Part shown: piece by piece, positions 3,864 through 34,296 of the stretch
Layout of the letters: each line of letters begins with the position of its first letter
Position numbering within the stretch: position 1 is the stretch's first letter
Assembly: GCF_022968135.1 (NCBI RefSeq)
Contig: NZ_JALJRA010000015.1
Location: forward strand, 62,001 to 126,000
Length of the DNA: 64,000 nucleotides
Source: Pseudorhizobium tarimense
Lineage (GTDB): Bacteria > Pseudomonadota > Alphaproteobacteria > Rhizobiales > Rhizobiaceae
Reading direction: 5' to 3'
Made by a program: the position numbers and the translations under genes
Notes under the pieces: model-generated
What the model was told of the DNA's origin: nothing
What the model saw: only the letters and a program-made list of their open reading frames with translations
The model's database searches: none

Positions 3864-4153
3864 TGGTGCGGACGGCGGGGCTCGAACCCGCATGGCCGAA
3901 GCCGAGGGATTTTCTTACCAGCTACGGTTTTCACCGCCGCCTTCCGGCGTTCGTGGTCTGGACTATACCTTCACCCTGGCCTTCGCTTTAGGTGCTGCCC
4001 GTCTAGTCTCTACACCTTCCTCTGGCGAGGCTTGGCTCGGGATCGCCATTTGACAGGTTCCCCCGACTTTGAGCAGTTCTACATCCGGCGTTTCCGTCGG
4101 TGCACTCAAATTTTGCTTAAGTCCCTTGTGTCTACCAGTTTCACCACGTCCGC
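3864..4153 (-). tRNA. tRNA-Leu(UAA), interrupted by a group I intron
   Basis: The 5' exon is 4119-4153 and the 3' exon 3864-3913, with the CCA encoded at 3864-3866. Joined, they give an 85-base class II tRNA: acceptor GCGGACG/CGTCCGC, D-arm GTG/CAC, anticodon arm AGGGA-CTTAAAA-TCCCT with anticodon TAA, a variable-arm hairpin GGC-TTCG-GCC and a T-arm GCGGG-TTCGAGC-CCCGC. The gene is colinear with the tRNA only if 205 bases after U34 are removed. It reads UUA codons. No protein-coding frame across this segment is credible. Confidence 0.96.
3914..4118 (-). ncRNA. Group I intron in the tRNA-Leu(UAA) anticodon loop
   Basis: The intron begins right after U34 and ends with a G (complement of 3914). 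P1 is ACUU-AA paired with UUGAGU, which puts the conserved U.G wobble at the 5' splice site. A P2 hairpin carries a GAAA tetraloop. The segment GAGCCAAGCC and the R and S core elements GTAGAGACTAGACGGG and AAGGTATAGTCC are present; GACTA/TAGTC forms P7. A P9 hairpin CGCC-GGAA-GGCG has a GNRA loop. These features match the small IC3 subgroup of tRNA introns. It has no open reading frame, so it should be mobile only by rare means. Self-splicing is inferred. Confidence 0.95.
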
Positions 4154-4232: not shown

Positions 4233-5015
4233 TCAGCTGCTGGCCGCCAGGATGGCTTCGCTGCGGATTTCTTCCGTCAGCTGAAGCCTGAGGCGCGAGA
4301 ATTCCGGACTTGCTTTTACTGTGTAGTGACGAGGATGCGGGATATCTACCGGAGTGATCGACTTGATCCTGCCGGGGCGCGCAGTCATCGTTACCACGCG
4401 GGAGGCCATGAATACGGCTTCCTCGATGTCGTGGGTCACGAAGATCACCGTCTTCTGCTCGCGTTCCCATATGCCGAGGAGGAGCTCCTGCATCAAACCA
4501 CGCGTCTGATTGTCGAGCGCACCAAACGGTTCGTCGAGGAGCAGGATCTTCGGGTCGTTCGCCAAAGCGCGGGCAATGGCGGTGCGCTGCTGCATGCCTC
4601 CCGAGAGCTGCTTTGGCCAGTGATCCTCAAAACCGCGCAAGCCGACCTTGTCGATATAGTTGTCCACGATTTCTTTGGATGATGCAGCTTGAATGCCACG
4701 TTCGCGCAGCCCGAAGGCGACATTCTCGCGCACGGTGAGCCACGGGAAGAGGGTATAGGACTGGAAGACCATACCTCTATCGGCACCCGGACCCTTGATC
4801 TCCTTCCCATCGAGGATGACCTTGCCGGCAGTGGGCTGATCGAGGCCGGCGATGATGCGAAGCAACGTGGACTTGCCGCAGCCCGATGGACCGAGAACGG
4901 TCACGAAGTCGTTCTCGGCGATCTCCAGATCCGTTGGCTGAAGCGCCTGCACGGGCTTTCCGCCACGAACGCCAGGAAAGGTTCGGCTTACGCCCTGGAC
5001 GATGAGCTCGCTCAT
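4233..5015 (-). CDS. ABC transporter ATP-binding protein, NitT/TauT family (hut operon)
   Basis: The 260-residue cytoplasmic ATPase powers the adjacent importer. It shows Walker [11 protein letters not shown]-loop [10 protein letters not shown], signature LSGGMQQR, Walker [13 protein letters not shown] and the switch His in VTHDIEEA. The family relatives are SsuB, TauB and NrtD. The ATG at 5015 overlaps the permease stop as ATGA and has GGAGG six bases before it; the longer frame to 5204 is only the overlap with the permease. It is the last gene of the hut operon, so the substrate is probably histidine, urocanate or a related compound, by inference. Confidence 0.92.
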
Positions 5016-5785
5016 GCAAACCTCCAGGCGAAAAGGTGACGGTTGGTGGTCTTGAATGCGAAGTCTGATATCAGCCCGATGATGCCGATTACGATGATGC
5101 CGAAGATGATTTGGCCGGTGGCCATCAGCGCCTGGCTGTTGATGATCATGTAGCCGATGCCAGAAGAAGCGCCAATTAGTTCTGCAACGATAACATAGGT
5201 CCACGCCCAGCCGAGCACGAGGCGCAGCGTCTCCGCGATGTCGGGAGCGCTGGCCGGAATGAGGACGCGCCGGACGATGCCGCCGTCACGTGCGCCGAGG
5301 GTGTAGGCGGCCTCGACCAAATCGCGACGGGTGGCCGCCACGGACACGGCGACCATCAGGATGATTTGGAAGACCGAGCCGATGAAGATCACCAGCAGCT
5401 TCTGCATTTCGCCAATGCCCGCCCAAAGGATGAGAAGCGGCACGAAAGCCGAGGCAGGAAGATAGCGCGAGAAGGAGACGAAGGGCTCAAGCAGTGCCTC
5501 CACCGGCTTGTAGGCACCCATGGCAATGCCGACGGGGACAGCCACGATTGCCGAAAGAACAAACCCTCCCACCACGCGCCAGACGGTCATGCCGATGTCT
5601 CCCAGGAACCCCTGTTCGGTCAGCAGGTAGATCCCGTCTTTAACCATAGTGATCGGGTCGGCGAGGAAGGTCGGAGAGACGAAGCCGCCGAGCGTGGCAA
5701 GCCCCCAGCCGGCGAAGAACAGAACGAAGAAAAGTATGCCGAGCAGGACGCGAGCCTGCGGGCTGATCGGTTGAAGTGGGCGCAT
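5012..5785 (-). CDS. ABC transporter permease, NitT/TauT family (hut operon)
   Basis: The 257-residue inner-membrane protein has about six hydrophobic segments, the first at residues 13-33 (LLGILFFVLFFAGWGLATLG). The EAA-type coupling loop is EAAYTLGARDGGIVRRVLIP, placed between membrane helices as in SsuC and TauC. It overlaps the ATPase gene by four bases, and a strong hairpin separates it from the binding-protein gene upstream. Substrate specificity cannot be read from the permease. Confidence 0.92.
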   Translation of the reverse strand: MRPLQPISPQARVLLGILFFVLFFAGWGLATLGGFVSPTFLADPITMVKDGIYLLTEQGFLGDIGMTVWRVVGGFVLSAIVAVPVGIAMGAYKPVEALLEPFVSFSRYLPASAFVPLLILWAGIGEMQKLLVIFIGSVFQIILMVAVSVAATRRDLVEAAYTLGARDGGIVRRVLIPASAPDIAETLRLVLGWAWTYVIVAELIGASSGIGYMIINSQALMATGQIIFGIIVIGIIGLISDFAFKTTNRHLFAWRFA

Positions 5786-5804
5786 GTTGCCTCGGCAGTC
5801 GACA

Positions 5805-5829
5805 ACCGGCGGAGCTATCCTCCGCCGGT
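5805..5829 (-). other. Intercistronic hairpin between binding protein and permease genes
   Basis: ACCGGCGGA pairs perfectly with TCCGCCGGT over a seven-base loop, ten bases after the binding-protein stop. There is no long T-run. Such hairpins often protect the upstream message and make binding protein in excess; that role is inferred. Confidence 0.6.
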
Positions 5830-5838
5830 CTTAAGACC

Positions 5839-6783
5839 TTACTGGATGAAAGACGTATCGACGATGGTGGAAAGGTCCGGCTTCGACTTTATGACGCCGA
5901 TCTCCATCAAGAGATCCGCAGCCTTCTGCGAGAACGTCATGAACTCGCCATTGAAGAAGGTCTTGTTGGCGGCCCGGTCCTGCCATTCCAGGTACTGCGC
6001 CGATTGGCCGAAGGCCTCAGCCGACTGCTTCACGTCGGCACCCATGATGCCGTAGCTCTTTTCCTTGTCCGCCTTGATCATCTCGAGCGCTTCGAAATAG
6101 CTCGTGGCCAGAGCTTTTGCCGCATCTGGATTTTCCTTGAGGAACTCGGGCGTGCAGCCGAAGGTGTCCATGACGGCCGGATAATCCAGTGTCGTCGCAA
6201 GGATCTTGCCCTGGTCCGGGGCGGCGCGGACTGTAGAGAGATATGGCTCGTAGGTCATCGCGGCATCGTTCTGACCCGCAACGAAGGCTTGCGCTGCAGG
6301 GCCGGGCTCCAGATTGACGACATTGACATCCTTCATCGTCAGTCCGTTCTCCTTCAGCATGTAGGCGAGCAGGAAGTAGGGCGAGGTGCCGGGTGCGGAG
6401 GCAGCGACCGTCTTGCCCTTCAGGTCAGCAAAGCCCTTGACCTCGGTGCGCACAGCCATGCCGTCGGCGCCATGGGACTTGTCTAGCTGGAAGATCTGCG
6501 TTGCCGGTACGCCATTGGCGTTCCAGACGATCCAGGTTTCAACGGTCGTGGCGGCGCACTGGATGTCACCGGAGGCAAGTGCGAGATGGCGGCTCGCCTG
6601 TGGAATCTTCTTGATCTCGACATCGAGCCCGTTCTTCTCGAAGATGCCGGCTTCCTTCGCCAGCGTCAGAGGAGCAAAACCTGTCCAGCCGGACATGCCG
6701 ATGGTGACGGAAGTCTCCGCCTTCGCATCGGTTGATCCCAGCAGAGCCGCAAGCGAGGCGGCGATAAACCAGCAGTTCTTCAT
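5839..6783 (-). CDS. ABC transporter substrate-binding protein, NMT1/SsuA-like (hut operon)
   Basis: The 314-residue periplasmic protein has a signal peptide (MKNCWFIAASLAALLGSTDAKA) and a mature start at ETSVTIGMSGW. The two-lobed fold is of the TauA/SsuA/ThiY superfamily: WTGFAPLTLAKEAGIFEK near the N-terminus, then LALASGDIQCAATTVE and a second-lobe LKGKTVAASAPGTSPYF. The ATG at 6783 has GGGGAA nearby; upstream in-frame codons would destroy the signal sequence. It follows hutD by 52 bases. Position in the hut operon suggests a histidine-pathway ligand, but this fold also binds nitrate, sulfonates and pyrimidines. Confidence 0.9.
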   Translation of the reverse strand: MKNCWFIAASLAALLGSTDAKAETSVTIGMSGWTGFAPLTLAKEAGIFEKNGLDVEIKKIPQASRHLALASGDIQCAATTVETWIVWNANGVPATQIFQLDKSHGADGMAVRTEVKGFADLKGKTVAASAPGTSPYFLLAYMLKENGLTMKDVNVVNLEPGPAAQAFVAGQNDAAMTYEPYLSTVRAAPDQGKILATTLDYPAVMDTFGCTPEFLKENPDAAKALATSYFEALEMIKADKEKSYGIMGADVKQSAEAFGQSAQYLEWQDRAANKTFFNGEFMTFSQKAADLLMEIGVIKSKPDLSTIVDTSFIQ

Positions 6784-6835
6784 CGTGGCAGTTCCCCAGT
6801 TTGGTTGATAATGAGGCAGCTCATGGCCATGCCTC

Positions 6836-7450
6836 TTAGGCGGGCATAGTATCCATGCTGCGATTATCTTGTCTAGACAAGATGTCTTCGGCCGGCAGTA
6901 TAGCGATCGCCAATACAGCACCTTCGCCGGTTACCGAAATTGCCTCTCCCGCTTCGACCATTATGGCATCCCGCGCCTGCAGTATCTCCTCCTTTTCGCC
7001 GCATGATACCTGGGCTCCGGAGCCGAGGCAGAAGATGAATCGGGTGCGACCTGAGACATTGAAAGAAAACGGCAGCGTCAACTTCTCCACATGGTGATTG
7101 GCGGTGTTGCGCCTACTCATGACATTGAAGTCGACGATCGTACCGCTTGACAGCCGAGCATATGTCGCCACGTCCGCCGGGAATCGGTAGGGCAGGGACG
7201 ACGCGTCAAGGAGCCTCACTTCCGACCCGTCGATCGACAGCTCCAAAAAGCCGCCCTCGATGACGCTCAATGTCCGGTCGATGCCGGGAAACATTGAGAA
7301 TAGACCATCTTCCGTCACTGTCGCCATGCTGATGCGCCAGTCGAAGGTATCCACATTGGCATCTTGTGGGAAGACAGCAATCTCCACAGTCTCCCCCCGT
7401 CCGTTCTTCCACGGCATGCGCTTGTGGGTGTGAGCGCGGAGAACCTTCAT
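6836..7450 (-). CDS. hutD: HutD family protein
   Basis: The 204-residue cupin-like protein begins MKVLRAHTHKRMPWKNGRG and has FDWRISMATVTEDGLFSMFPG and GIDRTLSVIEGG, all hallmarks of HutD/Ves. HutD is found with hut genes in many proteobacteria and has been proposed to tune hut expression or bind a pathway intermediate such as formylglutamate; no catalytic activity is established. It starts three bases after the hutU stop, so it is translationally linked. Confidence 0.93.
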   Translation of the reverse strand: MKVLRAHTHKRMPWKNGRGETVEIAVFPQDANVDTFDWRISMATVTEDGLFSMFPGIDRTLSVIEGGFLELSIDGSEVRLLDASSLPYRFPADVATYARLSSGTIVDFNVMSRRNTANHHVEKLTLPFSFNVSGRTRFIFCLGSGAQVSCGEKEEILQARDAIMVEAGEAISVTGEGAVLAIAILPAEDILSRQDNRSMDTMPA

Positions 7451-7453
7451 TGC

Positions 7454-9139
7454 CTAGTTCTCCAGGATGCCCGGCAGCCGCAGACCGTTCCGTCGCGCGC
7501 AGTCGAGCGCGATCTCATACCCGGCATCCGCATGACGCATGACGCCGGTCGCCGGATCGTTCCAAAGCACCCGTTCCAGCCGACGGGCGGCATCTTGCGA
7601 GCCGTCGCAGCAGATCACCATACCGGAATGTTGCGAATAGCCCATGCCAACGCCGCCGCCATGATGGAGGGAAACCCAGGTGGCGCCAGAAGCGGTATTG
7701 AGCAGGGCATTCAAGAGTGGCCAGTCAGAGACGGCGTCCGATCCGTCCTTCATCGCTTCCGTTTCACGGTTAGGGGAGGCGACGGAGCCTGAATCCAGAT
7801 GGTCGCGGCCGATGACGATTGGGGCGGAGAGCTCGCCGTTGCGCACCATCTCGTTGAAGGCAAGCCCGAGCTTGTGGCGATCGCCGAGGCCCACCCAGCA
7901 GATGCGCGCCGGCAGGCCCTGGAAGGCGATGCGTTCCTTGGCCATGTCGAGCCAGTTGTGCAGGTGCCTGTTGTCCGGCAGCAGCTCCTTTACCTTGGCA
8001 TCGGTCTTGTAAATGTCCTGCGGATCGCCCGAAAGTGCAGCCCAGCGGAAGGGGCCGACGCCACGGCAAAACAGTGGGCGGATGTACGCCGGCACGAAGC
8101 CGGGAAAGGCGAAGGCATTCTCCAGACCCTCGTCCTTGCCGACCTGGCGGATGTTGTTGCCATAGTCTAGGGTCGGCACGCCGGCGCTCCAGAAGGCCAC
8201 CATGGCTTCCACGTGAACCCTCATGGAGGCGCGGGCAGCGTCCTCCACCGCTTTAGGATCGCTCTCCCGCTTCGCCCTCGCTTCCTCCACGGTCCAGCCG
8301 AGCGGCAGGTAGCCGTTGCGCGGATCATGGGCCGAAGTCTGGTCGGTGACGATATCGGGACGCGGGCCCCCAGACAGCATGCGACGCACGAGTTCCGGAA
8401 AGATCTCGGCGGCGTTGCCGAGCAGGCCGACCGATTTGGCTTCGCCTTTCGCCGTCCATTCGGCTATCATGGCGAGCGCCTCATCAAGCGTCTTCGCCTT
8501 TGCATCGACGTAGCGGGTTCGCCGGCGAAAATCGATCCGGCTCTCGTCGCATTCGACGGCAAGGCAGCAGGCGCCGGCCATGACGGCGGCGAGCGGCTGC
8601 GCACCGCCCATGCCGCCGAGTCCGCCGGTCAGGATCCACTTGCCCTTCAGGTCGCCGTTGTAGTGCTGGCGGCCAGCCTCGACAAAGGTCTCGTAGGTGC
8701 CCTGGACAATGCCTTGCGTGCCGATATAGATCCAGGAGCCGGCGGTCATCTGGCCGTACATGGCCAGACCCTTCTTATCCAACTCGTTGAAATGGTCCCA
8801 GGTAGCCCAGTGCGGCACGAGGTTGGAATTGGCGATCAGCACCCGCGGCGCATCCTTATGGGTGCGGAAGACGCCGACCGGCTTGCCCGACTGGACGAGC
8901 AGCGTCTCTTCCTCCGTCAGCGTTTTCAAAGTGGCGACGATGCGTTCGAAATCGTCCCAGGTGCGGGCCGCGCGGCCGATGCCGCCGTAGACAACGAGCT
9001 CATGCGGGTTCTCGGCGACATCCGGATCGAGATTGTTCATCAGCATGCGCAGCGGCGCTTCGGTCATCCAGCTCTTGGCGTTGAGTTCCGGGCCGCGCGG
9101 GGCGCGGACCTCTCGGATGTTGTGGCGCGGATTTGTCAT
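7454..9139 (-). CDS. hutU: Urocanate hydratase
   Basis: The 561-residue cytosolic enzyme adds water to urocanate to make 4-imidazolone-5-propionate, with NAD+ as an electrophile. The family size is about 555. I see the N-terminal [18 protein letters not shown], the NAD-binding [14 protein letters not shown], the [16 protein letters not shown] loop with the conserved Cys, and the C-terminal [15 protein letters not shown]. The ATG at 9139 shares one base with the hutG TGA; a GTG one codon upstream is also possible. Confidence 0.98.
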
Positions 9140-9951
9140 CACTCGTTCCCCATTGCCTTCAGTTCGTAAGCCACCTTTTCCAGGCGCTCCAGGATCGTCT
9201 TCAGATGAGGCCTGAGCTTGTCCGCCTTCTCGCTGTCGTATGCGAACGGCACGGCCTCGGTCGCCAGATGCGTGGATTGGGCAAGCTCCATCTGGATGGC
9301 GTGAATGCCGTCAGCTGGCTTTCCGTAGTGGCGGGTTGTCCATCCGCCCTTGAAGCGCCCGTTGACGACGCTCGTATAGCCGGCCGCATAGCCCGCGACC
9401 TCGGCGGTCACTCGTTCGAACTCAAGCGCACAGGAAGCGCCGGAATTAGAGCCGATGTTGAAATCCGGAAGGGTCCCTTCGAAGAGGAACGGGATGTGAG
9501 ACCTGATGGAATGACAGTCGTAGAGGACAGCGAGTCCATGGACAGCCTTTACGCGCTCAATCTGTGCAGACAATGCCGCATGATACTGGCTGTGAAAGCT
9601 CTCTAGGCGGGCCATTACATCGGTTTCTGTCGGTTCTGCACCCTCTTTCCAGATTGATTTGCCGTCGAAATCGGTCTGGGGGATGAGGCCCGTCGTGTTC
9701 TGCCCGGGATAGAGACTGTTTCCGTGGGGATCGCGATTGGCGTCGATGACATAGCGGTGAAAGGCGGCCCGCACCGTCGTCGCGTCCTTGAGAAGGCCTG
9801 CGTATAGGTCGTGGATATGCCAGTCGGTGTCCGCCAGCAGGCGACCATTGTCGTTCAGCCTGTCCCATACCTCGGCTGGGAGGTCCGTTCCGGTGTGCGG
9901 GAAGGCAAGAATGACGGGCGAGTTGCCTTTCTGGATCTCAAAGACTGTCAT
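9139..9951 (-). CDS. hutG: N-formylglutamate deformylase
   Basis: The 270-residue hydrolase splits N-formylglutamate into glutamate and formate, the last step of the five-enzyme pathway. Motifs are [48 protein letters not shown] and [11 protein letters not shown], which supply the expected metal and substrate ligands. Having HutG with HutF, rather than formiminoglutamase, shows that FIGLU is first deiminated. The start overlaps the hutH stop as ATGA. Confidence 0.97.
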
Positions 9952-34108: not shown

Positions 34109-34296
34109 GGCGCCTCGATTGACGGCCTCCGCCGCTGGCGCTAGAAAGCGTCACGGTCAGCAGTTCACCGAGGCGTCGCCGTCCCGCAAGGGAAGCTAAA
34201 CCTGCGATTTTACGATCATCCGCCCTTATCCCGTGCCACTTCGACAAGACGGCGACCAGCGATACTCCAGACGGACCGGCACGTCGAGGATAAGAG

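Follow-up and report, generated by a model that had tools for sequence, protein, structure and literature searches.

The tRNA-Leu(UAA) gene of cyanobacteria and plastids carries an intron at a classic site, between U34 and A35. Among proteobacteria, introns are known in tRNA-Arg(CCU) of Agrobacterium and in tRNA-Ile(CAU) of Azoarcus. The intron that we describe here, in the tRNA-Leu(UAA) gene of Pseudorhizobium tarimense, shares the host gene, the site after U34 and a group I core with its cyanobacterial counterpart, and the size class and GAAA loops with the Azoarcus intron, which occupies a different tRNA and lies after U36. The tRNA-Arg(CCU) introns of Alphaproteobacteria are likewise small, occur in the same bacterial class and have a similar core, but they are inserted after U36, use another guide and are at most 72.6% identical to the intron studied here (29 Arg introns among the matches listed). 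One of them, from Bartonella bacilliformis, splices both in vivo and in vitro, according to the available text of PMC7717549. An interrupted tRNA-Leu-TAA gene is mentioned for Beggiatoaceae in the accessible part of PMC4853749; the tRNA is the same and the host is proteobacterial, but these are Gammaproteobacteria, and in that text the introns are known by the gene interruption rather than by type. Two reviews, in their accessible portions, give a general account of tRNA introns in bacteria (PMC3984707, PMC4033280). In the full-text literature, with partial coverage and few subscription papers, we found no report of a tRNA-Leu(UAA) intron for Alphaproteobacteria.

We are confident that the sole tRNA-Leu(UAA) gene found in the genome of P. 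tarimense is interrupted after U34 by a group I intron of the small bacterial tRNA type, which encodes no protein and would splice as a ribozyme, and that introns of this type have moved among alphaproteobacterial lineages.

An interrupted tRNA-Leu(UAA) gene and its intron

The gene occupies positions 3864..4153, including the encoded CCA, on the minus strand of the window, the 64,000-nucleotide stretch of genomic DNA analysed here. ARAGORN, run with introns allowed on L001, reported a tRNA-Leu (taa) with a 205-nt intron whose first base is position 36, and the joined exons make up an 85-nt tRNA-Leu(taa). The 35-nt 5' exon (4119..4153, minus strand) ends in GGGACUU, the last base of which is U34; the intron follows at 3914..4118 (minus strand), and the 50-nt 3' exon (3864..3913, minus strand) begins with AAAAUCCCUC, starting at A35, and encodes the CCA end. 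A promoter scan of both strands near the gene returned nothing.

In the 601 bases around the gene, RF00028 was the sole Rfam family matched at E values up to 1 (44.7 bits, E = 3.6e-10), with the match spanning model positions 1-253, that is, the whole model. Across the 4.86-Mb genome, the same family had one match at E <= 0.001, namely, the window's intron (E = 6.9e-10). The covariance-model search suggested by the initial annotation thus returned a significant match, but the score lies under the curated gathering cut-off of 50 for this group I family. Because near relatives with the same architecture exceed or reach this cut-off (L040, 62.4; L034, 51.5; L035, 50), the shortfall appears to reflect sensitivity rather than absence of the intron. 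At default settings, ARAGORN identified only a tRNA-Asn gene in the window, and Rfam at the gathering level only this tRNA-Asn and a COG3860 RNA motif (34154-34207, 75.2 bits). Both searches missed the tRNA-Leu(UAA) gene, and ordinary annotation would therefore probably lose it.

We then assessed the fold in a structure alignment of 42 Leu introns, including the window's, which were selected as tRNA-Leu introns by splice typing and each extended by 10 nt of exon; 53 pairs were named, from P1 to the last hairpin. Pairing is seen in 97.1% of the 2,225 cells, compared with 27.4-45.2% when the partners are slid by 1-3 columns, and none of 500 shuffles scored as high on any measure. Changes on both sides were found in 23 of the 53 pairs, whereas 23 others are invariant across the 42 introns and uninformative either way. 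One named P2 pair is unpaired in 24 of the 42 sequences, and P2 overall is paired in 88.8% of cells. In the window's own intron, every named pair is a standard pair. The P3-P8 core with its P3/P7 pseudoknot, backed by covariation, is that of a group I intron, putatively of subgroup IC3. A chance match to a group I intron was rejected on the E values and the covariation, and a homing endonuclease inside the intron was rejected because 205 nt is too short and nothing there fits one.

In P1 (4104..4122, minus strand), exon ACUU (4122-4119) pairs with intron GAGU (4107-4104), placing a U34.G pair at the splice site in 42 of 42 sequences. The GAAA loop of P2 (4091..4094, minus strand) is invariant in the 42 sequences. 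P3 (3995..4076, minus strand), formed by 4076-4071 with 4000-3995, encloses P4-P6 and is paired in all cells, with one pair changing from UA to CG in 11 sequences. P7, the guanosine site (3961..4008, minus strand), pairs GACUA (4008-4004) with UAGUC (3965-3961), again in all cells, and two of its pairs vary on both sides. The loop of the last hairpin, in the P9 region, is also GAAA (3929..3932, minus strand), with bases 1, 3 and 4 invariant and base 2 conserved in at least 90% of sequences, and the intron sequence ends in a terminal (omega) G at 3914..3914 on the minus strand. The typing scripts demanded both the splice-site U and the terminal G, so finding these two bases in the relatives adds no independent evidence, in contrast to the guide G that faces U34. 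By eye, the guide tracks the exon from host to host (Leu, Arg, Thr and Lys), as in GAGU for tRNA-Leu, GGG for tRNA-Arg and GCC for tRNA-Thr. The initial annotation had proposed a group I intron between U34 and A35 of an otherwise perfect tRNA-Leu(UAA) at 3864-4153, with the P1 U.G pair, the GAAA loop of P2, the P7 helix and the terminal G, and all of this is borne out, the coordinates exactly; the minus strand is added here.

The transcribed intron is predicted to fold such that the 5' exon end is held on the guide through P1. Guanosine bound in P7 would cut after U34, and the freed exon end would attack behind the terminal G, so that U34 and A35 become joined and the anticodon is restored. 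The spliced tRNA-Leu(UAA) would then undergo normal end-processing and charging, with no protein encoded by the intron itself.

Host tRNAs and closest relatives

At E <= 0.001, RF00028 matched 7 of the 57 genomes sampled from the genus, 36 of 297 from the order, 27 of 289 from the class and 25 of 299 from the phylum. The samples overlap, the genome of the window is in each of them, and weak matches are lost under stricter filters. Splice typing assigned a host to 65 of the 76 hit loci: 35 tRNA-Leu(UAA) with the intron after U34, 11 tRNA-Arg(CCU), 10 tRNA-Thr(GGU), 3 tRNA-Leu(CAA), 3 tRNA-Lys(UUU), 1 tRNA-Lys(CUU) and 2 CAU tRNAs typed as Met, with the class named by hand at 12 loci, 11 loci untyped (including L096, which was set aside) and five hit places of the order scan outside the typing. 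The initial annotation started from Arg(CCU) and Ile(CAU) as the proteobacterial hosts, a premise that is not supported here; tRNA-Leu(UAA) is the commonest host among the typed loci.

A pattern scan of GTDB genomes yielded at least 119 stretches and, from these, at least 97 typed introns, at least 79 of them in tRNA-Leu(UAA) and at least 18 in tRNA-Arg(CCU); the pattern, derived from Leu-type cores, is biased to these, and only the two hosts named were accepted. The readings L130 and L180 were dropped, and the remaining stretches gave no passing reading. Leu(UAA) introns are present in records titled Bradyrhizobium, Sphingobium, Caulobacter, Reyranella, Devosia, Stappia, Rhizobium and Sphingomonas, as well as in Acidobacteriota and cyanobacteria. 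Those of Bradyrhizobium, Sphingomonas, Caulobacter, Stappia and Rhizobium, several of them from MAGs, share the site and type of the window's intron but have diverged in sequence.

Among the other hosts, the tRNA-Thr(GGU) introns lie after U36 (L048, L050, L053, L054, L058, L060, L061, L086, L089 and L091), and seven of the ten come from a single genus of the order (f18 g62). Introns were also typed in tRNA-Leu(CAA) after U33 (L041, L078, L094) and in tRNA-Lys(UUU)/(CUU) (L077, L079, L087, L090), both assignments being less sure, and for the Lys, Leu(CAA) and CAU-tRNA introns the position in the tree is uncertain too. A like intron in tRNA-Lys(UUU) is carried by four putatively viral IMG/VR contigs of 142-543 kb (L327, L328, L330 and L329), although the genes around that of L327 look cellular in type by eye; these viral tRNA-Lys introns take no settled place in the tree. 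According to the accessible part of a 2014 review, phage group I introns were then known in protein-coding genes only (PMC3984707).

The window's intron shares 93.2% identity with its counterpart in G064, 90.2% with the one in Rhizobium sp. WYCCWR10014, 89.3% with the one in R. phaseoli JHI366 and 83.6-85.0% with the Stappiaceae-type introns. In the tree, it joins five other introns of Rhizobiaceae (6 rows, 99/90), and the next grouping adds the Stappiaceae-type introns and one further intron (11 rows, 100/98). Judged by sequence, the kin of the window's intron are alphaproteobacterial introns at the same site. A Leu(UAA) intron of the gammaproteobacterium Tahibacter aquaticus (L195), 81.2% identical to the window's, groups with the alphaproteobacterial ones.

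Ancestry and state of the gene

Within the genus, a Leu(UAA) intron is present in five of the 57 genomes (G000, G012, G018, G064 and G076). Another 50 match the intron-free pattern, 26 as read in sequence and 24 as pattern matches only, including G073, where the gene is split further on by another element; of the other two, G003 has an intron-free variant and G015 a gene split by a prophage. The introns of G000, G064 and G076 lie far from those of G012 and G018 in the tree, and a single clade of the five is rejected (AU p = 0.00195). Thus, two intron lineages exist within one genus, which requires at least one lateral acquisition. We propose that introns of this type passed from one alphaproteobacterial lineage to another while keeping to a single site in a single gene; the probable route is recombination at the DNA level that brought exon sequence along. 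The exon differences that bear on this route are few and short, and are also found in intron-free genes elsewhere. In the D arm, the exons of G000, G064 and G076 read GACAC, compared with GACGC in all 50 intron-free matches of the genus; this fits, if thinly, with a DNA-level acquisition that included exon sequence, but ACAC is also present in the intron-free G003 and in intron-free genes of other families. The exons of G012 and G018 are unlike those of most genus-mates, and the whole gene may have been imported into these two carriers, but the same 5' exon type occurs intron-free in G033 and G075.

The flanks place the genes of G012/G018, G064, G076 and G081 at the locus of the intron-free genes. 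In the window's genome, the downstream flank is common to 5 of the 11 compared genomes (for example, over 6.5 kb with G029), whereas the upstream 9.5 kb is matched by none of the 11, which points to a rearrangement there. Directly upstream of the tRNA gene, the window carries ABC transporter genes, hutD and hutU (4233-9142), and this segment is unshared at the locus by the 11 genomes.

The initial annotation had left a choice between horizontal transfer and old inheritance. The lateral part is supported by the two lineages within the genus, and the lineage of the window's intron could itself be old in Rhizobiaceae, having been lost many times. A fuller version of the second option, in which the intron is old in Rhizobiaceae or the order, its patchiness stems from many precise losses and this copy was never transferred, would account for the grouping of the window's intron with Rhizobiaceae and then Stappiaceae-type introns and for the carriers G064, G076 and G081 residing at the locus of intron-free genes. 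However, intron presence requires five changes on a 26-row rpoB tree, and well supported branches force at least four of them. Shuffling the labels gave as few changes in 209 of 500 cases, so presence shows no more clustering than under shuffling; this tree covers 26 of 28 genomes chosen to include all carriers, with G008 (no hit) and G016 (split gene) left out. Moreover, G012 and G018 hold the other lineage at the genus's own locus, and the D-arm difference also speaks against uninterrupted descent, G003 notwithstanding. We therefore regard such descent as possible but unlikely, and prefer movement between lineages. A recent arrival from cyanobacteria, where the intron interrupts the same nucleotide, is far less probable still, and we reject it. 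In a tree of 161 introns, from which L094 was left out, the 31 cyanobacterial-type Leu introns, sorted as such by core motif, form one clade (100/100) that comprises 29 Cyanobacteriota records, a Legionellaceae MAG (L149) and a genome from the same class as the window that shows 5% contamination (L070); L149 and L070 may be contaminants. After 16 long or doubtful rows were dropped, the core-column tree again placed 29 rows, all Cyanobacteriota records, in one clade (100/100), with the window's intron outside; in these unrooted trees, the cyanobacterial clade stands apart from all other introns (100/100). The core reads CAGAGACUCGACGG in the cyanobacterial-type introns L119 and L170 and UAGAGACUAGACGG in the window's. 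Among the matches listed, the 28 introns most similar to the window's are all of the non-cyanobacterial type, and none of the 49 named introns of that type comes from a Cyanobacteriota record. Hence, the phylogeny suggested by the initial annotation separates the cyanobacterial introns, and the shared site is no sign of recent transfer from them, but on the core columns the test does not reject uniting all Leu introns in a single clade (AU p = 0.137), and these introns may thus share a distant ancestor at the Leu site.

It is also very improbable that the intron is inactive and the gene dead, with UUA read in some other way. UUA is indeed rare: in the 44 ORFs that a mechanical rule selected from the window, it accounts for 13 of 14,146 codons; however, TTA is present in 11 of these 44 ORFs, the window's intron keeps its named pairs intact, and no other tRNA-Leu(UAA) was found. 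The RF00005 search of the genome (99.93% complete) gave 47 hits, at which ARAGORN typed 43 distinct tRNAs, including Leu CAA, CAG, GAG and UAG but not UAA. This absence is not proof, because contig ends truncate some of the hits and the typed list lacks other tRNAs that should be present, Ala(UGC) among them. Nevertheless, the 5' exon pattern was found once in the genome, and searches of the genus's five carriers with two exon patterns detected no intron-free tRNA-Leu(UAA). On the same grounds, we rejected the idea that the interrupted gene is an additional, ectopic copy next to an intact native one. The survey for a second gene proposed in the initial annotation thus found none, and its suggestion that UUA decoding would depend on splicing stands, as far as the assembly shows.

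Integrated elements at the same anticodon-loop site

In G015, a T7-like prophage lies between the halves of the tRNA-Leu(UAA) gene, which are 42 kb apart (within C1:1309400-1352899; L320, L321). It splits the gene at a 13-bp core, AAGAGACTTAAAA, and a tyrosine integrase and a T7-like RNA polymerase are encoded at its ends. The tRNA is not rebuilt at either end, and a complete tRNA-Leu(UAA) gene adjoins that of the integrase. An identical integrase is encoded on a 41,952-base IMG/VR contig, and two IMG/VR contigs with this integrase (L324, L325) likewise carry a tRNA-Leu(UAA). The order of regulator, tRNA-Leu, integrase and polymerase is similar to that in phage LUZ100. In G073 (78% complete), a 2-kb element within the stretch C4:222300-242299 (L317) splits the same gene at the 13-bp core AGACTTAAAATCT and carries its own full tRNA-Leu(UAA); two of its open frames had no match in Pfam. 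The intron site, between CTT and AAAA, falls inside both cores. Neither 13-bp core nor the common GACTTAAAA was found in the 20-kb stretches around the genes of the five carriers.

Both elements, in bringing their own tRNA-Leu(UAA), match the tRNA-dependent lysogeny described in the accessible text of PMC10865867, in which the targets are Lys-TTT, Leu-CAA and candidate Ile2-CAT genes. The intron hosts that overlap such targets are Leu-CAA, Lys-UUU and the CAU tRNA (probably Ile2), together with Leu-UAA, the target of the two elements described here, whereas Arg-CCU and Thr-GGU are intron hosts that have no counterpart among the targets named in that text. An intron at this site removes the intact core and leaves the spliced tRNA unchanged, and carriers may therefore resist such integrases. 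That the intron protects the tRNA-Leu(UAA) gene from integrating elements nonetheless seems to us an outside chance, and the same overlap would be expected if introns and integrases simply favour conserved anticodon loops.

These results correct the view of proteobacterial tRNA introns as mainly Arg and Ile cases, and reveal an apparently essential tRNA gene that is invisible to default gene finders. They also offer a test bed in which an intron that encodes no protein occupies one and the same nucleotide position in alphaproteobacteria and cyanobacteria, with no recent exchange between the two, and in which two intron lineages coexist in one genus at a target common to phage integrases.
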